This document shows positions 10,403 through 61,952 of a DNA stretch of 64,000 nucleotides, piece by piece (the stretch's first letter is position 1; the number at the start of each line of letters is the position of its first letter). Source of the stretch: Chloroflexota bacterium (GTDB lineage: Bacteria > Chloroflexota > Dormibacteria > Dormibacterales > Dormibacteraceae). The notes beneath the pieces were generated by a model that did not search any database, was not told the origin of the DNA, and saw only the letters and a program-made list of their open reading frames with translations. The stretch covers positions 1 through 64,000 of the forward strand of contig VBGP01000017.1 in assembly GCA_005880795.1 (NCBI GenBank). The letters run 5' to 3'. The translations under genes were made by a program, and so were the position numbers.

Positions 10403-10480
10403 CGCCCGGACCCTTGTAGCACCCGATTCCGCATCTCTGACGCCAGCCATGCGTGTCGAGGCCCCGCCAGGCGCACGCCA

Positions 10481-10544
10481 CGGATAGTCCGGACGAAGCA
10501 GCACGAAGTCCAAAGCCAACTCCGGATAGTCCGGACTATCCGGG
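10481..10544 (+). repeat. Paired palindrome repeat, family A composite copy
   Basis: A half-palindrome GGATAGTCCGGACGAAGC (10482-10499) and a full palindrome GGATAGTCCGGACTATCC (10524-10541) have TCCGGA centres at 10488 and 10530, 42 bp apart. The copy at 43111-43174 is almost the same sequence in inverted orientation. It lies between the membrane-protein gene and the sigma-factor gene. Confidence 0.85.
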
Positions 10545-10621
10545 ATTTGACGCCAGGCGTGCGGAATCAGGATCACCACCTGCAACCAGCAGCCGGTTTC
10601 CGGCATCTCACAAGCAGCAAG

Positions 10622-19130: not shown

Positions 19131-19195
19131 TCGGATAGTCCGGACGAAGCCGCATCGGCGGCAGGTCCAATCCCGGATAGTCCGGACTATCCGGC
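19131..19195 (+). repeat. Paired palindrome repeat, family A composite copy
   Basis: A half-site GGATAGTCCGGACGAAGC (19133-19150) and a full palindrome GGATAGTCCGGACTATCC (19175-19192) have TCCGGA centres at 19139 and 19181, again 42 bp apart. The spacer resembles that at 10.5 kb only loosely. The element starts 10 bp after the CapA-like gene stop. Confidence 0.85.
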
Positions 19196-30706: not shown

Positions 30707-31210
30707 CTAGCCGCTGAAGCGCTGCGCGTTGCCCATGTCCGGCCAGACGTAGGCCTGGACGTTCGAGTACGCCTGGCGGAGGTGGTTGCCATCGTGATGG
30801 ACCCACTCGTGGAGGAGCTCCACCACCGTCAGGCGAGCCACCTTCGGATGCATACCGCCTCGCTTCAGCTGTTCAGGTTTCAGGGAGCGCACCAGCGCGA
30901 TGCTTTCGCGGCGCATCGGTTCAAACTCCTCGAGCATCTGCCGCGATGTGCGATCGCAGTCGTGCCTTGCGCGCGAGATGTCGACCTGTTTCCAATTCTC
31001 GAGCTGCGGTTCATCCTCGGCCACGATGATGCGGATGCGGCCGGCAAAACCGCGTTTCTCTGCCTCGATGATGTGTCCGACGCATTCGTTCACGCACCAC
31101 TCGTCGGGCGCGGGACGCCAAGAGGCGACAGCAGGCGGCAGGGTTTTCAGAAGGTTGGCGAAGGCCTGGCCGGAAGACTCGAGAAGATCAGCGATCTCTT
31201 CCGGCGTCAC
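30707..31210 (-). CDS. DinB-like (DfsB) four-helix metal-binding protein
   Basis: The 167-residue protein has the DinB helical-bundle pattern: WRPAPDEWCVNECVGHIIEAE, and near the C-terminus LTVVELLHEWVHHDGNHLRQAY, providing the usual three histidine ligands. The family comprises possible metal-dependent thiol-S-transferases, of unknown specific function. GTG 31210 overlaps the E2 stop (GTGA), so it is the last gene of the pyruvate dehydrogenase operon. Confidence 0.82.
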   Translation of the reverse strand: MTPEEIADLLESSGQAFANLLKTLPPAVASWRPAPDEWCVNECVGHIIEAEKRGFAGRIRIIVAEDEPQLENWKQVDISRARHDCDRTSRQMLEEFEPMRRESIALVRSLKPEQLKRGGMHPKVARLTVVELLHEWVHHDGNHLRQAYSNVQAYVWPDMGNAQRFSG

Positions 31211-32490
31211 GGAGCCGGCGGGACAAGAAGGGTCACCGGGTTCTCGACCAGCCGCTTCACCTCGGCCATGAACTGCGCCGCGGTTGCACCGTAAAAGACT
31301 CGGTGGTCGACGGACAGCGTCATTCGCATCACCTTGCCCGGAACGATTCGTCCCTCCGCGACCACCGGCACGTCCTTGATCGCGCCCACCGCGAGGATCC
31401 CCGCCTCGGGTGGATTGATGATGGCGACGAACTCGTCGACTCCGTACATGCCGAGATTCGATATGGAGAAGGTTGCGCCGGAAAGGTCACCTTCGTTCGG
31501 GCGGCCTGAGCGGGCGCGCTCGATGACCTGGCGCGATTCGATCGAGATCTGGATCAAGTCCTTCAGGTCGGCGTCGTGCACGACCGGCACGAGCAAACCC
31601 ATGCCCTGGCTCGGTGCGACGGCGAGGCCGATGTTGATCGAGCGCTTGCGCTGGAACTTGCCCTCGACCCACGAGCTGTTGACCTCGGGGAACTTGCGCA
31701 GCGCGAGCGCGCAGGCGCGGACCAGGAAATCGGTCATGGTCACCTTTTCGGCGCCTGGCACAGAGTCCTTCAACTGCTGCCGAAGGCTCACCGCGAGGTC
31801 GACACGGGCCTCGACCGTGACCTGGAACTCAGGGATGGTGGACTTCGCCTCGGCCATGCGGCGTGCGATCGTCGCCTGCATCCGGTTGGGCTCGACGATC
31901 TCGACCTCCGCGCCGGCACGCCTGTCACCTGCGGGCTGAGTCCGGCGGCGGTCCGCCGCGGGCCGGGTGCCACCGGCCGCCATCACGTCCTCTTTGACGA
32001 TCCTGCCCTCCGGGCCGCTGCCCTTCAGGGAGGAGAGGTCGACGCCCATCTCGGACGCCAATCGCTTCGCCAGCGGTGAGGCCTTGATGCCGTCCTGCTG
32101 GCCATCTTGTTGTCCTCCCCGTTCACGGGGAGGTGCCGGGGCAGCCGCCGGAGGGGCTGGAACCGGCTGCGCCTTTGGGGCGGGAGCTTCGGGTTCCTTG
32201 CCCTTCGGCTCGGCGGCCGCCTTCTGCTGAGCCGGTTGCTTCGCTGGAGCAGCCTCGCCTGCCTCGCCGATCTTCGCGATGGGTGCCCCGATCTTGGCCG
32301 GCACACCCTGCTCGACCAGGATCTGCAGTACGCCGTCGGCCTCCGCCTCGAGGTCAAACGTCGCCTTGTCGGACTCGACCTCGGCCAGCACCTCGCCGGT
32401 CTTCACCTGGTCGCCGCTCTTCTTCTTCCATTCGACGATCGTGCCCTCCTCCATCGTGTCGGAGAGCTTGGGCATGTTTATGTCAGGCAT
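31207..32490 (-). CDS. pdhC: Pyruvate dehydrogenase complex E2, dihydrolipoamide acetyltransferase
   Basis: The 427-residue protein has one N-terminal lipoyl domain (PKLSDTMEEGTIVEW, lipoyl lysine in ESDKATF), an Ala/Pro-rich linker, an E1/E3-binding domain (ASPLAKRLASEMGVDLSSLKGSGPEGRI), a second linker and the catalytic domain ending SVDHRVFYGATAAQFMAEVKRLVENP. HRVFYG carries Tyr where many E2s have Asp, as in cyanobacterial/chloroplast forms. A REP-like DNA element is embedded in the first linker (32113-32160). ATG 32490 overlaps the E1-beta TGA by one base. Confidence 0.94.
   Translation of the reverse strand: MPDINMPKLSDTMEEGTIVEWKKKSGDQVKTGEVLAEVESDKATFDLEAEADGVLQILVEQGVPAKIGAPIAKIGEAGEAAPAKQPAQQKAAAEPKGKEPEAPAPKAQPVPAPPAAAPAPPRERGGQQDGQQDGIKASPLAKRLASEMGVDLSSLKGSGPEGRIVKEDVMAAGGTRPAADRRRTQPAGDRRAGAEVEIVEPNRMQATIARRMAEAKSTIPEFQVTVEARVDLAVSLRQQLKDSVPGAEKVTMTDFLVRACALALRKFPEVNSSWVEGKFQRKRSINIGLAVAPSQGMGLLVPVVHDADLKDLIQISIESRQVIERARSGRPNEGDLSGATFSISNLGMYGVDEFVAIINPPEAGILAVGAIKDVPVVAEGRIVPGKVMRMTLSVDHRVFYGATAAQFMAEVKRLVENPVTLLVPPAP
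32113..32160. repeat. REP-like element, family C, inside pdhC
   Basis: CCTCCCC-GTTCAC-GGGGAGG (32115-32134) followed by CCGGGGCAGCCGCCGGAGGGG lies within the sequence encoding the first flexible linker of E2. The reading frame is kept, so the linker (PAPPAAAPAPPRERGGQQDG) is partly of repeat origin. Confidence 0.6.
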
Positions 32491-33518
32491 CAGCTCAACC
32501 CGGGTTTCCTGCCGAGAGTGACGCGGACCAGGCGCTTGATGTCCTCGCTCGTGGGGATCGAGGTCTTCTCGAGCTGCTGGTTGTATGGCATCGGCACCTG
32601 CGCGCCTCCGAGCCGGCGGATCGGGGCGTCGAGGTAATCGAAGCACCGCTCCTGCACGCCGGCCGCGAGCTCGGCGGTCACGCCGTACGTCGACCAGCCT
32701 TCCTCCACGACGACGCACCGGCTCGTCTTGCGCACCGACTCGACGATGGGATCCCAGTCGATGGGCCGGATCGAGCGCAGGTCGACGACCTCGGCGTCGA
32801 TGTCCTCTTCCTCGAGCTGCTTGGCGGCCTCGTTGGCGAGCACGGCCATCCTCGACACGCCGACGATGGTGACGTCAGAACCCGTGCGGCGAAGGGCCGC
32901 CTTGCCCAACGGCGTCGTGTAATCGCCGGCGGGAACCTCGCCCTTGACGTTGTAGAGGCTCATCGATTCGAGAAACATCACCGGGTTGTCGGCGCGGATC
33001 GCGGACTTGAGCATGCCCTTCGCATCCGCGGGCGTCGTCGGCGCGACGACCAGCAGGCCGGGGATCAGTCCGTACAGAACTTCAAAGCTGTGCGAGTGCT
33101 GGGCGGAGAGCTGATGTCCCGCACCGCCTGGCATCCGGATCACCATCGGCACCTTGACCTCGCCGCCGAACATATAGCGGATCTTGGCCGCGTTGTTGAC
33201 GATCTGGTCGTAGGCGATCAGCGAGAAGTTGATGGTCATCAGCTCGACCACCGGGCGCAGGCCGAGCATGGCCGCGCCGATGGCCGTGCCCACGATCGCC
33301 TCTTCGGCAATCGGCGCATCGACCACGCGCTGCGGGCCGAACCTGTCGAGGAGTCCCTCGGTGACGCGATACGCGCCGCCGAATATCCCTATGTCCTCGC
33401 CGATCAGGAAGATCGAGTCGTCGCGCTCCATCTCCTCGGCCAGCGCCTCGCGAAGAGCGACCCGGTAGAGCTTTTCGTCAGAGGCGGCCGGCGCCTTGGC
33501 CGGCGTTGCGGTCGCCAT
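32490..33518 (-). CDS. pdhB: Pyruvate dehydrogenase complex E1, beta subunit
   Basis: The 342-residue transketolase-like pyrimidine-binding subunit has GEDIGIFGGAYRVTEGLLDRFG, DAPIAEEAIVGTAIGAAMLGLRPVVE, MPGGAGHQLSAQHSHSFE, VVDLRSIRPIDWDPIVESV and VEEGWSTYGV. It pairs with the alpha subunit encoded directly upstream. ATG 33518 overlaps the alpha stop by one base (TGATG), and its own stop overlaps the E2 ATG in the same way. Confidence 0.96.
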   Translation of the reverse strand: MATATPAKAPAASDEKLYRVALREALAEEMERDDSIFLIGEDIGIFGGAYRVTEGLLDRFGPQRVVDAPIAEEAIVGTAIGAAMLGLRPVVELMTINFSLIAYDQIVNNAAKIRYMFGGEVKVPMVIRMPGGAGHQLSAQHSHSFEVLYGLIPGLLVVAPTTPADAKGMLKSAIRADNPVMFLESMSLYNVKGEVPAGDYTTPLGKAALRRTGSDVTIVGVSRMAVLANEAAKQLEEEDIDAEVVDLRSIRPIDWDPIVESVRKTSRCVVVEEGWSTYGVTAELAAGVQERCFDYLDAPIRRLGGAQVPMPYNQQLEKTSIPTSEDIKRLVRVTLGRKPGLS

Positions 33519-34603
33519 CACACCCTCTCCGCGCGAAGCTCGGGCCGGTTGTCCCACTGGCCGGCGTAGGTGTACTTGTAGAGGTCGTCCGGGTTGGGAT
33601 CCGGGCTCTGGTCCGCAAACTCGATGATGTCGCGGACCTCGGCGTCGACCTCCTGCCGCACCTTCTTGAAGTGCTCCTCGTCCGCCAGGCCGCTCTTCTC
33701 CAGCTCGTGCTCGAAGGCGACGATGGGGTCCGCCTTGCGCCACTTCTCCTTGTCCTCGGCCGAGCGGTATTTGTCCGGGTCGACCACCGAGTGGCCTCGG
33801 AATCGGTAGCAGAGCGACTCGATGAAGCGGGGGACCGAATCCTTGCGCGTCTTCTCGACGATCTCGCTCGTCTGCAGCATGACCTCGCGCAGGTTCATGC
33901 CGTCGATCTGGATCGACTCCATGTCGTAAGCGCACGCCTTCTTGTAGATGTCGGCGACGGCCGACGCCTTCTCGACCGGAGTGCCCATGCCGTAACGGTT
34001 GTTGACGCAGAACCAGACCACGGGAAGGTCGAAGACCTTGGCCATGTTCAGCGACTCGTGGAACGCGCCGATGTTGGTGGCGCCATCGCCGAACATGCAG
34101 AAGATCACGTCGGGCTGCTTGCGATATTTCACCGCCCACGCGCCGCCGACAGCCAGCGGCAGGTGACCTCCGACGATTCCGTAGCCGCCCATGAACCGGC
34201 GGCTGTAGTCGACGAGGTGCATCGACCCGCCGCGGCCGTGTGAGGTTCCAGTCTCTTTGCCGAAGAGCTCGGCCATGACTGCTTTCGGGTCGATACCGCG
34301 AGCGATCGCGTGGCCGTGCTCCCGGTAGCTGGTGAAGATCCAGTCATTCGGCTTGAGCGCGAGGATGCCCCCGACGACCGTCGCCTCCTCGCCGATGTTG
34401 AGGTGGCAGTAGCCTCCGATCTTCGCCTTGGTGTACTGCTCCTGCGCGCGCTCTTCGAAACGGCGGATCAGCTGCATCTGCCGGTGCAGGCCGAGCAGGA
34501 AATCGCGATTGCCCTTGTTCAGCTCGAGCGATTTCGGGTTGATCGCGCTCGGCGTGGGGGGTGGGGCAGAGGGCTTGACGGGGGCGACCATTTGTTTCTC
34601 CAT
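33518..34603 (-). CDS. pdhA: Pyruvate dehydrogenase complex E1, alpha subunit
   Basis: The 361-residue thiamine-diphosphate enzyme has YCHLNIGEEATVVGGI, the ThDP motif GDGATNIGAFHESLNM ending VWFCVNN, and the phospho-loop-like RFRGHSVVDPDKYRS. ATG 34603 follows a strong GGGGAGGTGAAA ribosome-binding site provided by a REP-like element. The same frame is open upstream through the entire E3 gene without a stop, so an E3-E1-alpha fusion protein could also be made. The Pro-rich stretch after the start is probably a flexible tail. Confidence 0.93.
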   Translation of the reverse strand: MEKQMVAPVKPSAPPPTPSAINPKSLELNKGNRDFLLGLHRQMQLIRRFEERAQEQYTKAKIGGYCHLNIGEEATVVGGILALKPNDWIFTSYREHGHAIARGIDPKAVMAELFGKETGTSHGRGGSMHLVDYSRRFMGGYGIVGGHLPLAVGGAWAVKYRKQPDVIFCMFGDGATNIGAFHESLNMAKVFDLPVVWFCVNNRYGMGTPVEKASAVADIYKKACAYDMESIQIDGMNLREVMLQTSEIVEKTRKDSVPRFIESLCYRFRGHSVVDPDKYRSAEDKEKWRKADPIVAFEHELEKSGLADEEHFKKVRQEVDAEVRDIIEFADQSPDPNPDDLYKYTYAGQWDNRPELRAERV

Positions 34604-36052
34604 TTTCACCTCCCCACTTGCTGGGGAGGTCAGGCCGCTCACGGCCTGGGTGGGGGGATTGGAGCTTGTTTTGCGATTCGGGATGTGGATCGCGCGACCT
34701 TGCGCCGCCAGCGCTGACTCCATCAGCGACTCGGGCAGCGTCGGATGGGCGTGGATCGTGAGGTCGATCTGCTCCAGCGTCAGCCCGTTCTGCACCGCCA
34801 GGGTCGCCTCGGCGATGAGGTCGGTCGCGCGCGGCCCGATGATGTGCGCGCCCAGCAGCCGGCCCGACTCCGCGTCGGCGACGACCTTGACGAACCCTTC
34901 GGTCTGGCCGAGCGTCAGGGCGCGACCCGCCGCGGCGAACGGAAACTTCCCGATTTTCACCGCGATGCCTTTTTCCTTCGCCTCTTTCTCGCCGAGTCCC
35001 ACGTGCGCGATCTCCGGGTCGGTGTAGATGCAGTTGGGCGCGGCGTGGTAATCGGGGACACGATTTCCGTGCCCGGCGATGTTCTCCACCGCGCACACCC
35101 CTTCGTACGACGCGACGTGCGCGAGCATGATGCCGCCGATCACGTCACCGATCGCCCACACGCCGTCCGCGGTCGTATGCAGGTGCTCGTCGACGACGAC
35201 GCGTCCGCGGTCGAGCTTGACGCCGGCTTTTTCCGCGTCGAGACCTTGCGTGTAGGGCACGCGCCCGACCGCGAGCAGCACCTGGTCGGCATCCACAGCG
35301 CCACCCTCGGCGCCGGTCGAGAAGCGCACCTGCAGCGCGCCGTTTTGTTTGACGACCTCGGAGACCTTGCTGTCGGTGTGGATCTCGCCGCCGAGTCCAG
35401 TCAGGTGCTTGGTGTAAACCGCGACCAGGTCGGCGTCGACCATCGCCAGCACCTGCGGCAGCATCTCGAGCACCGTGACCTTGCTGCCCAGCGCGGCGAA
35501 CATGGCCGCGAACTCCATCCCGACGACGCCACCGCCGATGACGGCGAGGCGGCGGGGGATCTCCTTCAGCTCGAGGATCTGGTCGGAGTCGATCGCAAGC
35601 TCGGCGCCGGCCAGCGGGATGCGGGCCACCGCGGACCCGGTGGCGATCACGATGTCCTTCGCCTGAAGCTGGTCGCCGCTCACGTCGACCAGGCCCTTCC
35701 CGGCAAGGCGGGCGCCGCCCTTGAACGCGGTCACGCCGCCCGCCTTGAGCAGCCCGTCGACACCCTTGACGAGCTGGTCGACGACCGAGGTCTTGCGCTT
35801 CTGGGCGGCGGTCCAGTCGAAGGCGAGATGGTCCGCGACGACGCCGAACGCCGCGCCCTCTCGGGCCTGCGTGTAGAGCTCGGAAGACTGGAGCAGCGCC
35901 TTGGTCGGGATGCAGCCCCGGACCAGGCAGGTGCCGCCCATGCGGTCTTTCTCCACGATGGCCGTCTTGGCCCCAAGCTGAGCCGCCCGAAGCGCGGCGA
36001 CGTAGCCACCCGGCCCGCCGCCGATCACCAGAACGTCAAACGCCCCAGCCAT
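34604..36052 (-). CDS. lpd: Dihydrolipoyl dehydrogenase (E3), open into pdhA
   Basis: This FAD-dependent E3 re-oxidises the lipoyl groups of E2. It has the FAD motif VIGGGPGGYVAALRAAQLG, the redox pair in GGTCLVRGCIPTK, the NAD motif VIGGGVVGMEFA, FAD segment VWAIGDVIGG, and the C-terminal HAHPTLPESLMESAL with the catalytic His. Homology ends near AIHIPNRK, but no stop follows: the frame runs through a REP-like element into pdhA. The span given ends at the pdhA ATG (483 codons). ATG 36052 has an AGGAG just upstream. Confidence 0.92.
34605..34663. repeat. REP-like element, family C, at the lpd-pdhA junction
   Basis: CACCTCCCC-ACTTGCT-GGGGAGG and AGGCCGCTCACGGCCT hairpins lie exactly between the E3 and E1-alpha coding regions. 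Read on the minus strand it encodes QAVSGLTSPASGEVK in frame with both and offers the Shine-Dalgarno of pdhA. The lpd stop codon is absent. Confidence 0.75.
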
Positions 36053-42743: not shown

Positions 42744-43109
42744 ATGCAAACGCTGGCAACTCAGGTCAAGCTGCGGCGGCTGATCCGGACCTCGGCCCAG
42801 GACTGGGGCCGGCTGGCCTCGGACCCGCTCGAGCGCGTCCGTGTCGGTTCGGTCGCGGACCGGCTGCTCGGGCTCTCCGGCGAGGTTCGGGAGGCCTGGC
42901 GCCGGGAGAGCCAGCCGGGCGCGCTGGAGGAGCCTCTGCGGCTCTACGTCAGCGAGTCCTTGCGCTCGATCGACCTGGCGATCGCCGGCCTGCAGCAGCG
43001 CGGAGCCGACCTGGAGCTGCTGCGGGGCGACTTCGAGGCGGCGGCGCTGCCGCTCGAGGTGTTCCTGCGGGGCCTGGACGCCGAGCCGGCGCTGCAGCGC
43101 TCGGCCTGA
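42744..43109 (+). CDS. SOS-regulated small helical protein of unknown function
   Basis: 121 residues, Leu/Arg/Glu-rich and predicted to be almost all helix (LRRLIRTSAQDWGRLASD, YVSESLRSIDLAIAGLQQRGADLELL), with no signal peptide, membrane segment, zinc or nuclease motif. I do not recognise a family. The promoter has a perfect LexA box, placing it in the DNA-damage regulon next to lexA. A role in damage tolerance or division control is possible but not shown. The paired-palindrome repeat begins 2 bp after its stop. Confidence 0.8.
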   Translation: MQTLATQVKLRRLIRTSAQDWGRLASDPLERVRVGSVADRLLGLSGEVREAWRRESQPGALEEPLRLYVSESLRSIDLAIAGLQQRGADLELLRGDFEAAALPLEVFLRGLDAEPALQRSA

Positions 43110-43110
43110 T

Positions 43111-43174
43111 CCCGGATAGTCCGGACTATCAGGGGTTGGCTTTGGACATCGTGCTGCTTCGTCCGGACTATCCG
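43111..43174 (-). repeat. Paired palindrome repeat, family A composite copy, inverted
   Basis: GGATAGTCCGGACTATC (43113-43129) and the half-site GCTTCGTCCGGACTATCC (43156-43173), TCCGGA centres at 43120 and 43162, are 42 bp apart. On the minus strand nearly the whole 64-bp unit matches the copy at 10481-10544, including the spacer. Confidence 0.87.
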
Positions 43175-43229
43175 TAGGTATGCCGCACGTGCGTAATGCG
43201 CGGCCCGCCGCCCGTTATCCGCAGCTTGT

Positions 43230-43257
43230 GGGCTCTATAACAGTCATTATCAAGAGC
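43230..43257. other. Candidate dif-like XerC/XerD recombination site
   Basis: The 28-bp sequence has an 11-bp left arm GGGCTCTATAA, a 6-bp centre CAGTCA and an 11-bp right arm TTATCAAGAGC. The ATAA-N6-TTAT core and arm sizes match bacterial dif sites, and GCTCT/AGAGC extend the symmetry. It is an AT-rich island in an intergenic region, exactly where the main gene direction changes from plus to minus. ftsK is in the same window. No database comparison was possible. Confidence 0.5.
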
Positions 43258-43273
43258 AACCTGGGGGCATCCA

Positions 43274-43510
43274 TCAGGCCTGTCCAGCTTCCCTGCCCAC
43301 CGTTTTCAGCAGCTGGTCTCGGGTGATCCGACCCTCCGCGATGACGCGGTCGTCGAGCAGAACCACGGGGACGCGCCAGTCGTAGAGGTCGTGGAGGCGA
43401 TCGTCTGAATCCACGTCGGCCAGCTGCGGCTCGTGGCCGAGCGAGCGGAGGAGGCTGAGCGCGTCGTCGCAGAGGTGGCAGCCCTGGCGGGTGACGAGGA
43501 CCAGGCTCAC
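43274..43510 (-). CDS. Glutaredoxin-like thiol-disulfide protein
   Basis: The 78-residue thioredoxin-fold protein begins MSLVLVTRQGCHLCDDALSLL, with redox motif CHLC, and has the cis-proline segment WRVPVVLLDDRVI. It resembles the short DUF836/NrdH-type glutaredoxins. GTG 43510 is the start. It lies directly after the LysM gene on the same strand; the target protein is unknown. Confidence 0.88.
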   Translation of the reverse strand: MSLVLVTRQGCHLCDDALSLLRSLGHEPQLADVDSDDRLHDLYDWRVPVVLLDDRVIAEGRITRDQLLKTVGREAGQA

Positions 43511-58965: not shown

Positions 58966-59667
58966 CTAAGAAGAAGTTTGCGACGAGAACTCCCGGGTTG
59001 CCACGCCCAGCCCCATCGCGCCCACGTTTCGCCCGTCGATCGTGATGAACGTCGCCGAAGCCTTTCCGCTCGTGATCTTCACGTCCACGCCCGTGAAATA
59101 CACGATCGAGCCGGCGGCAAGGTTGCGACCTGAGTCCCCGTACTGCGGTGTCCCGTCGACCACCGCGTTGATCCAGACCGCATCGGTGACACGCACGCCC
59201 ACGACGATCGGGCGAACCTGGATCGCCGGGCTTGCGACCGCGGACGGCTGGGCGGTGGCCAGAGCGGACGGCGATGCCAGAACCACCGCGGCGCGCTGGT
59301 CCGCCGTCACCTGACGCCAGGCGTACCCGGTGAAGGCGCCCGCGAGGAGGACCAGGCCGGCGGCCGCGATGGCGGGTGTGGTCAGGACGAAACGGGCGCG
59401 GCGCTCGCTCTTCTCCATTCCGAGGGCGAGGCTGGGGCGCCGTCCGTTGCTGGGCAGGGCGGCGAGAAGCTCGTCCGGATCGAGCCCGAGGTAGGTGGCG
59501 TAAGTGCGCAGGTAGCCCTTCGCATACACAGGCGCCGGCAGCCTGTCGAATTGGTCCGCCTCGATGGCGCGGAGGTGATCGGCGCGGACACGGGTCGCCG
59601 CCTCAACCTGCTCGATCGAGAGGCCACGCTCGCCGCGCTTGGCAGCCAGCACAGCCCCGATCGTCAT
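58966..59667 (-). CDS. RodZ-like helix-turn-helix membrane protein (DUF4115)
   Basis: The 233-residue protein has a cytoplasmic HTH_25-type domain (LAAKRGERGLSIEQVEAATRVRADHLRAIEADQFDRLP, YAKGYLRTYATYLGLD). One membrane helix follows (FVLTTPAIAAAGLVLLAGAFTGYAW), then an extracytoplasmic beta domain resembling DUF4115 (VRVTDAVWINAVVDG). RodZ proteins link MreB to the elongation machinery, but no mre genes are in the window. ATG 59667 overlaps the ftsK stop (ATGA). Confidence 0.87.
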   Translation of the reverse strand: MTIGAVLAAKRGERGLSIEQVEAATRVRADHLRAIEADQFDRLPAPVYAKGYLRTYATYLGLDPDELLAALPSNGRRPSLALGMEKSERRARFVLTTPAIAAAGLVLLAGAFTGYAWRQVTADQRAAVVLASPSALATAQPSAVASPAIQVRPIVVGVRVTDAVWINAVVDGTPQYGDSGRNLAAGSIVYFTGVDVKITSGKASATFITIDGRNVGAMGLGVATREFSSQTSS

Positions 59668-61952
59668 TCGAGACCTAAGCGCTCCAAAAGGTCATCCACG
59701 TCCGGCAGGTTCATCAGCACCTCTCTCGACTTCGAGCCCTGGTAGCCGCCGATCACGTGATGGTCCGCCAGCTGGTCGACGATGCGTCCCGCGCGCGAGT
59801 AGCCGACGTTGAACTTCCGCTGCACCAGAGAGACCGATGCGCCGCCCTCGGCCGCAACGGCTCGAGCCGAGCGAGCAAAAAGCGGATCGAGCTTGCGCTC
59901 CTCGCGCCGCTCCCCTCTCTCCCACTCGGTACCCGCACCCTCTTCGAGGATCTCTTCCATGTATCGCGGGCCGCCCTGAGACTTCCAGAAGTTGACGACG
60001 CCTTCCACCTCGGGGTCGCTGACGAACGCGCCCTGGATGCGCGTCGGCTTGCCCGCGTCGACAGGTTGGTAGAGCATGTCGCCGCGTCCGAGCAATTTCT
60101 CGGCGCCGCCGGTGTCGAGGATGACGCGGCTGTCGACCTGCGAACCAACGGCGAAGGCGATTCGCGATGGGATGTTGGCCTTGATCAATCCGGTGATGAT
60201 GTCGGTCGATGGACGCTGCGTCGCGATGATCAGGTGGATGCCGACAGCCCGCGCCAGCTGCGCGATCCGGCAGATCAGCTCCTCGATCTCACCCGCGGCG
60301 ACCATCATCAGGTCGGCGAGCTCGTCGATGACGATCACGATGTAGGGCAGCGATCGCGCCGATTTCAGCGCGGCCTTCTCGTTGTAGGTCGCGATGTTGC
60401 GCACGCCTTCACCGGAAAAGAGCTTGTAGCGGCGATCCATCTCGGCCACGGCCCAGCGCAGCGCCGCGGCGGCTTGGTGCGACTCGACCAGGACGGGCAA
60501 GGCCAGATGCGGCAGCCCGTTGTAGCCCGTGAGCTCGACCCGTTTGGGGTCGATCAGGAGCAGACGCAGATGATCGGGTGTCACCTGGAACAGCAGGCTG
60601 GTGATGAGGGCGTTGATGCAAACGCTCTTGCCCTGGCCGGTGGCGCCGGCGATGAGGAGATGCGGCATCCGGGTCAGGTCGGCGACGATCGACTGCCCCG
60701 ACACGTCATTGCCAAGGCCCAGCGCGAGCCGGTTGGTGCCTTCGCGGAACGCCGCCGTCTCGATGACCTCGCGAATGGTCACCAGGCTCGCCGACTTGTT
60801 GGGAACCTCGATGCCGACGGCGGACTTGCCCGGAATCGGCGCCTCGATGCGCAGCGGCGCGGCGGCGAGCGCGAGCGAGAGATCGTTCTGGAGCGCGGTG
60901 ATCCGCTTGACCTGGACACCGGGGCCGGGCTGCACCTCGTACTGCGTCACCGCGGGCCCGGGATTCACCCCGACGACCTTGCACTCCACCCCGAACGTCT
61001 GCAGGGTCGACTCGAGGATCTTCACGTTGCGCTTGATCTCATCCGCCATTCGCTCGCGACGCGCGGTCACGGTGTCGAGCAGCGCGATGGACGGCAGCTT
61101 CCACTCGATCTCGGGCAGGTCGTCCTCGGTTTCGGCGACGACGCGCATCACAGGCTCGGAGGCTCGCGGCGCATCGTCCTCGACGGCCACTGTCGTGGCG
61201 GGCGTGCTGGCCGGCCTTTCAGGCGCAACGTCTTCGGGCTCGTCGACCTCCCACAGAGCACGTTGATCGGCGGACGCCGGTGCCGTCGCGAAGCTCGCGG
61301 CCGAGCGGGTGAGCAGGTCGGAGCTCGCGGGCGTCGCCTTTTGTGGCTTGCCTTTTTCCTGCGCCGGCGCTGCGACGAGGTCGCGCAGCCGAGCGCGTTC
61401 GGCGTTCGCCGCCCGCAATCCGCCGACCGCGGCGACGAGGAGCGCCCCCGGACTGAAATGGATCGTCACGATGAGGCCGATCACGAGCCCGGCGATGAGC
61501 AGCGCCCACGCGCCGACCCTGGTGACGAGGCCGATGAGAGCCGAGTCAATGGCGCGTCCAGCCGATCCACCGGCGCCGGCCGCCAGGCCGAACAATCCGA
61601 TCAGAGAGAGGACCGTGACCATGCCCGCTACGAAGTCGATGCCGCGCGGCCGGGGCGCCTTGGGCCAAAGCAGGTACGCGCTGAGCGCGATCGCCGCCAC
61701 GACCGGAACAAACCACGCGCTGCCGAAGCCGGCGACCATGCCGTCGCGGATGAAGCCGAGGATCGAGCCGGCGTGGCTGAGGATGGCGAGCACCCCCAAC
61801 AGCGCGGCCAGCATCAGCAGGACGCCGACGATCTCACGTACCTGGCGGGTGCTCAGGCGCGGGCGAGCGGCGCGCTTGCTCCGCTTGGAACGTGAGGATG
61901 AAGCGCGGCGTGAGCCGGATCGAGTCGAGCTTCGGGATGTGGTGCGACGCAT
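59664..61952 (-). CDS. ftsK: DNA translocase FtsK/SpoIIIE
   Basis: The 762-residue protein has a basic N-terminus, four membrane helices (about 40-180), a linker and a RecA-like motor (GATGQGKSVCINALITSLLF, IVIDELADLMMVAAGEIEE, IIATQRPSTDIITGLIKANIPSRIAF). The C-terminal gamma winged helix (VSLVQRKFNVGYSRAGRIVDQL) reads polar KOPS-like sequences. It pumps chromosome ends across the septum and activates XerCD at dif, for which a candidate lies at 43.2 kb. Confidence 0.97.
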   Translation of the reverse strand: MRRTTSRSSTRSGSRRASSSRSKRSKRAARPRLSTRQVREIVGVLLMLAALLGVLAILSHAGSILGFIRDGMVAGFGSAWFVPVVAAIALSAYLLWPKAPRPRGIDFVAGMVTVLSLIGLFGLAAGAGGSAGRAIDSALIGLVTRVGAWALLIAGLVIGLIVTIHFSPGALLVAAVGGLRAANAERARLRDLVAAPAQEKGKPQKATPASSDLLTRSAASFATAPASADQRALWEVDEPEDVAPERPASTPATTVAVEDDAPRASEPVMRVVAETEDDLPEIEWKLPSIALLDTVTARRERMADEIKRNVKILESTLQTFGVECKVVGVNPGPAVTQYEVQPGPGVQVKRITALQNDLSLALAAAPLRIEAPIPGKSAVGIEVPNKSASLVTIREVIETAAFREGTNRLALGLGNDVSGQSIVADLTRMPHLLIAGATGQGKSVCINALITSLLFQVTPDHLRLLLIDPKRVELTGYNGLPHLALPVLVESHQAAAALRWAVAEMDRRYKLFSGEGVRNIATYNEKAALKSARSLPYIVIVIDELADLMMVAAGEIEELICRIAQLARAVGIHLIIATQRPSTDIITGLIKANIPSRIAFAVGSQVDSRVILDTGGAEKLLGRGDMLYQPVDAGKPTRIQGAFVSDPEVEGVVNFWKSQGGPRYMEEILEEGAGTEWERGERREERKLDPLFARSARAVAAEGGASVSLVQRKFNVGYSRAGRIVDQLADHHVIGGYQGSKSREVLMNLPDVDDLLERLGLE

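Follow-up and report, generated by a model that had tools for sequence, protein, structure and literature searches.

A strongly supported dif candidate between convergent genes of a Ca. Dormibacterota genome, and an I-CreI-like endonuclease gene beside the site in relatives

The stretch of DNA analyzed here, which we call the window, consists of bases 1-64000 of contig C75 (106,810 bases) from a Ca. Dormibacterota MAG of 3.22 Mb (217 contigs, 95.5% complete), labelled G000. The nearest relatives of its LexA come from soil MAGs deposited under Chloroflexi or Ca. Dormibacterota. At its focus is a gap of 164 bp between two convergent genes, in which GGGCTCTATAA-CAGTCA-TTATCAAGAGC is found exactly at 43230-43257 of the plus strand. 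The features of this locus, together with the one distant gene that bears on it, are as follows.

42744-43109, plus strand: conserved open reading frame of 121 aa, the left neighbour; no Pfam match, 41-88% identity in relatives
43112-43178: REPIN-like element
43213-43231, plus strand: stretch containing GTTATCCGCAGCTTGTGG, which resembles the 3' end of the relatives' endonuclease gene (L036 and L043 compared with L029, L030 and L034)
43230-43257, plus strand: very probable dif site, 28 bp in an 11-6-11 layout; unique in the genome, with a conserved motif and a switch of skew and polar words
43230-43240, plus strand: left arm GGGCTCTATAA, the variable arm, at the XerC-arm position by analogy; 11.1 bits (31 genomes)
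43241-43246, plus strand: central region CAGTCA, by analogy the strand exchange region; 6 bp, 4.5 bits
43247-43257, plus strand: right arm TTATCAAGAGC, the conserved arm, at the XerD-arm position by analogy; 16.5 bits (31 genomes), TTATC nearly invariant
43274-43510, minus strand: glutaredoxin-like protein (DUF836), the right, convergent neighbour; PF05768, E 2.5e-10
59664-61952, minus strand: FtsK translocase with alpha, motor and gamma domains (Pfam)

The glutaredoxin-like gene is followed by LysM, lexA and hflX. To the left of the site, the REPIN-like element is made up of a 20-bp palindrome, CGGATAGTCCGGACTATCCG, a spacer of ~26-30 bp and then TCGTCCGGACTATCCG, and it folds strongly (z -3.3 and -6.4). 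Other copies are found in the window at 10480-10546 and 19132-19194, with more than 40 matches in the genome, in which no RAYT-type (PF01797) transposase was found. The element is also present in other members of the genus, and other genera have different paired palindromes in the same place. Considering that this repeat is dispersed over the genome, we ruled it out as a part of dif. By eye, four loci (L067, L069, L042 and L035) have an HNOB (heme-NO-binding)-like gene, intact or decayed, between dif and the glutaredoxin gene.

The first-pass annotation had proposed a dif candidate at this position, described as an AT-rich patch of 28 letters with the 11-6-11 layout, in a GC-rich intergenic region. 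Both the layout and the setting are borne out, as the 28 bp have a G+C content of 43%, compared with ~67% for the surrounding region. Only one copy of the core ATAACAGTCATTAT is present in the 3.22-Mb assembly; its next-best matches have 3 mismatches and do not rise above a reversed-pattern control. The two arms show a dyad symmetry averaging 5.5 matches out of 11, compared with 2.9 out of 11 after shuffling (maximum 3.7 in 2000 shuffles). In other words, the site has the length of ~28 bp, the two 11-bp arms with partial dyad symmetry, the 6-bp centre, the single copy, the intergenic position and the low G+C content that are expected of a dif.

We then compared the equivalent gap among relatives, and in ~25 of them it holds one motif with the fixed frame G-N10-N6-TTATC[AG]NN[AT]NC, the left arm ending in TAA, TAGAA, TTAG or AAA. 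The CTAGAA left arm found in several relatives is reminiscent of the dif of B. subtilis. Given this recurrence at the same place and an arm symmetry above that of shuffled sequences, the 28-bp patch is more than a product of chance. A sequence model built from 25 copies matches 32 of the 42 genomes of the family (f1), with one copy each in 31 genomes and two in G018, and has no match in any genome of families f2-f4. Many of the 10 f1 genomes without a match are incomplete; in G021, the syntenic gap measures 37 bp and has no motif, and in G010, the right arm of dif is lost and the endonuclease copy described below is broken. Among the 31 genomes, the right arm carries more information than the left. 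The single copy and the conservation among relatives that the first-pass annotation had expected of a real dif are thus both found.

For the analysis of skew, we used stretches of nine contigs, oriented so that the motif reads on the plus strand, with shorter contigs covered as far as they reach. In each of the nine, GC excess within 60 kb of the motif is positive on its left side and negative on its right. The cumulative GC-skew maximum lies 255 bp from the motif in its own contig and 139-700 bp away in five of the nine (G000, G022, G005, G032 and G020), while it lies 22-182 kb away in G019, G003, G026 and G013. At contig scale, and for MAG contigs only, the site therefore has the position at a GC-skew shift that is expected of a dif. 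Words pointing toward the motif were chosen on three contigs and tested on six validation contigs, in which GTGGGG occurs 423 times toward the motif and 178 times away from it, converging in six out of six. The longer GGTGGGG points toward the motif 209 times and away 59 times, and GTGGGGGA does so 61 and 6 times, from both sides. The cumulative maximum of GTGGGG lies at most 1.2 kb from the motif in six of the nine contigs and 3.1-7.3 kb from it in the remaining three; in G026, where GC skew alone is misleading, it is found 120 bp from the motif. Polar words directed at the site thus flank it, as expected of a dif and as the first-pass annotation had anticipated in naming KOPS-like octamers. 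GTGGGG and GTGGGGGA behave like KOPS, and we consider them candidate KOPS words that would be read by FtsK. The switch in gene direction on which the same annotation had relied is only partly seen: the genes to the left are mixed, with pyruvate-dehydrogenase genes on the minus strand at 31207-36052, whereas a switch of both GC skew and polar words does occur at the site.

A pseudo-palindrome between convergent genes at a skew switch could also be another conserved element of the terminus, such as a Tus/Ter or RTP-like terminator-protein site or a bidirectional transcription terminator. We regard this as very unlikely. Fork traps consist of several oriented sites, whereas the motif is single copy; its 11-6-11 frame is fixed, with a more conserved right arm, and FtsK-type polar words converge on it. 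Moreover, no stable hairpin forms at the site (z +0.5 and -1.2), and no terminator, promoter or structured RNA was found that accounts for the 28 bp. We therefore consider 43230-43257 very probably a chromosome-dimer resolution site (dif). This reading, computational throughout and drawn from MAGs, is strongly supported by the conservation, single copy and dyad symmetry of the motif, by the skew and polar words that converge on it, by the gamma domain of the FtsK that, as previously annotated, is encoded in the window, and by the presence of one Xer.

This Xer is the only PF00589 protein in the G000 assembly, a protein of 308 aa on contig C9 (21255-21767), outside the window. Compared with NCBIfam models, it scores 222.9 bits for XerC (cut-off 335) and 192.4 bits for XerD (cut-off 329.6), higher than with XerS or XerA models, and its best match among solved structures is XerD 1A0P. 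The residues by which E. coli XerD contacts FtsK are apparently not conserved at its C-terminus, judged by eye outside the alignment. The xer gene is not linked to dif, whose contig is free of xer over at least 43 kb to the left and at least 63 kb to the right. The canonical XerD arm TTATGTTAA was not found beyond chance in the G000 genome, nor in other families of Dormibacteria. Within the completeness of the assembly (95.5%), we thus find a single xer gene and not the two recombinases of canonical XerCD. The site could still be served by XerC and XerD if the second recombinase lay in the missing 4.5% or below detection, and the arms do resemble those of XerCD sites in their only partial symmetry and unequal conservation; moreover, some of the relatives contain several integrases. 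We think this variant rather unlikely, since exactly one PF00589 protein is found not only in G000 but also in about a dozen other f1 genomes, and the extra integrases elsewhere vary in number as those of mobile elements do. With only one Xer-type recombinase detected and non-canonical arms, XerCD is less likely here than a system with a single recombinase. The locus looks like a predicted Xer/dif system of this kind whose arms are divergent (TTATC, not TTATGTTAA), which refines the XerC/XerD-type site first annotated here.

In the mechanism that we propose, replication forks would meet near 43230-43257, and FtsK (59664-61952) would pump DNA to dif, probably steered by the G-rich words GTGGGG and GTGGGGGA. 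The single Xer tyrosine recombinase (G000:C9) would bind both 11-bp arms of dif and exchange strands within the 6-bp centre, turning chromosome dimers into monomers. Binding and cleavage at dif, the dependence on FtsK and the role of the KOPS words are predictions of this model.

In nine f1 genomes (G001, G002, G010, G011, G013, G018, G022, G033 and G034), an endonuclease ORF of ~162-179 aa is located directly to the left of dif and in the same orientation. It has a single LAGLIDADG motif, AAGFVDGEGC (AAGILDGEGC in G034), and no further copies were found elsewhere in those nine genomes. Its stop codon abuts dif in G001, G002 and G013, falls inside or barely past the edge of the left arm in G011, G018 and G034, and lies ~27-50 bp from dif in G022 and G033, the locus of G033 being cut by the contig end. 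Profile matches to the I-MsoI entry (E 5e-14), to I-CreI (E ~4e-9) and, weakly, to LAGLIDADG_1 show that the gene beside dif in relatives combines a LAGLIDADG motif with an I-CreI-like relationship. Among intact copies, dN/dS values are ~0.06-0.25, with dS near saturation, indicating that the protein is maintained by purifying selection. G003, G005 and G026 carry truncated remnants at this position, and the GTTATCCGCAGCTTGTGG stretch of the window is possibly another, judging from its similarity to the gene's 3' end. Intact, remnant and absent copies form the invade-decay-lose pattern of homing genes.

The motif itself might then be the target or footprint of a homing endonuclease, without a function for the host, which would account for the gene adjoining it in nine genomes and for the remnants in others. 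This is extremely unlikely, as the motif is located at the skew switch and persists in ~20 genomes that lack an intact endonuclease gene, which belong to many genera and include lineages without any trace of the gene. With the motif read as dif, the gene is associated with dif in relatives only, not in the window, and it is most likely a homing gene for which dif, being always present, offers a safe place to land, a mechanism that we infer from this association. Enzymes of the I-CreI type act as homodimers on pseudo-palindromes, and dif, being a pseudo-palindrome, may itself be the target of the endonuclease. We see an even chance that Dormibacterota harbour an I-CreI-like lineage specialised on dif, which would cut or insert at the empty locus, stay there, and track dif despite its sequence change between families. 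If so, selfish DNA would exploit chromosome-dimer resolution sites without Xer, and an important chromosome site would have, in the endonuclease, a parasite of a new kind. In the literature searched, which left most subscription journals out of reach, we found no paper on a homing endonuclease at dif.

Some loci with the gene or its remnants show additional half or whole sites. In G013 (L210, positions 858 and 1470), two dif-like sites lie 612 bp apart in direct orientation and have cagtcaTTATCG in common; the second copy is weak, one of the two abuts the endonuclease gene, and the double site could represent a displaced resident dif. Besides its endonuclease remnants, the G005 locus (L048) carries TTATCAAGTCCATGATC, a second but degenerate right arm, located a few hundred bp past dif. 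In G033 (L214) and G022 (L213), GATTGCGATAA and GATCGCGATAA, respectively, directly follow the endonuclease stop codon to the left of dif; in reverse complement, each reads as a half site resembling the right arm, and they lie 27-50 bp away from the real dif. We also considered whether dif is more deviant in endonuclease-bearing genomes, and set this aside as a weak effect (p ~0.017, uncorrected for relatedness).

A second family, f3, has endonuclease homologues (~35% identity) that are likewise found in a convergent gap. In f3 genomes without the endonuclease, the conserved motif in this gap is a different one, close to AACGTCGTAAA-tcgaag-ATTCTCCGTAC, with which the 3' end of the f3 endonuclease gene overlaps. 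Six f3 genomes have a strong xer match on the contig of this gap, a few kb from it. Only pattern positions were used to assess polarity in f3. On most contigs of G038, the polar word GTGGGGGAG has a single orientation; C51, which carries the gap at 51.9 kb, stands alone in showing a clean terminus-type change of this word, from plus at 16.5 kb to minus from 107.8 kb onward. Together with the gap motif, this polarity suggests that the f3 dif is probably there too, at the dif-like motif of the convergent gap, a lead drawn from five word positions.

A testable dif, a candidate single Xer and a candidate KOPS word are now available for a largely uncultivated soil phylum, and in combination they provide a terminus landmark for fragmented genomes. 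Our literature search, with most subscription journals outside its reach, returned no report of dif in Dormibacterota.

With I-CreI and I-MsoI, the relatives' gene shares the single LAGLIDADG motif of homodimers that read a pseudo-palindromic site; unlike them, it is free-standing between genes at dif and not in an rRNA intron. IMEX are likewise selfish DNA resident at dif, but in most loci here dif copies do not form a flanking pair, and the element is one small gene. Nearly all have one dif, rather than an element between dif and a dif mimic, and we infer homing and not Xer capture. Canonical XerCD/dif, as in E. coli and B. subtilis, has been predicted in 641 organisms from 16 phyla (PMC3025954). 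Our site shares with it the 28 bp in an 11-6-11 layout, the intergenic position, the single copy, the GC-skew shift and the better conserved right arm, which is the asymmetry between XerD and XerC arms described by Kono et al. (PMC3025954), while it differs in the sequence of its right arm (TTATC[AG]nn[AT]nC, not TTATGTTAA) and in having one recombinase, not two. Single-recombinase systems are known as difSL/XerS, difH/XerH and archaeal XerA/dif (PMC5357621), with which our system has the one recombinase and the divergent site in common; unlike in these, xer is not linked to dif here. The centre has a normal 6 bp, compared with 11 in difSL, and the C9 protein scores higher with XerC/XerD models than with those of XerS and XerA. 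Legionellales XerL/dif also combines one recombinase with an xer far from dif (PMC9765430), and it shares the divergent, intergenic dif and the skew inflection, but the Legionella arms are perfect 10-bp repeats, whereas those described here are only partly symmetrical. In its arms or its centre, the site thus differs from the XerS, XerH, XerA and XerL systems.
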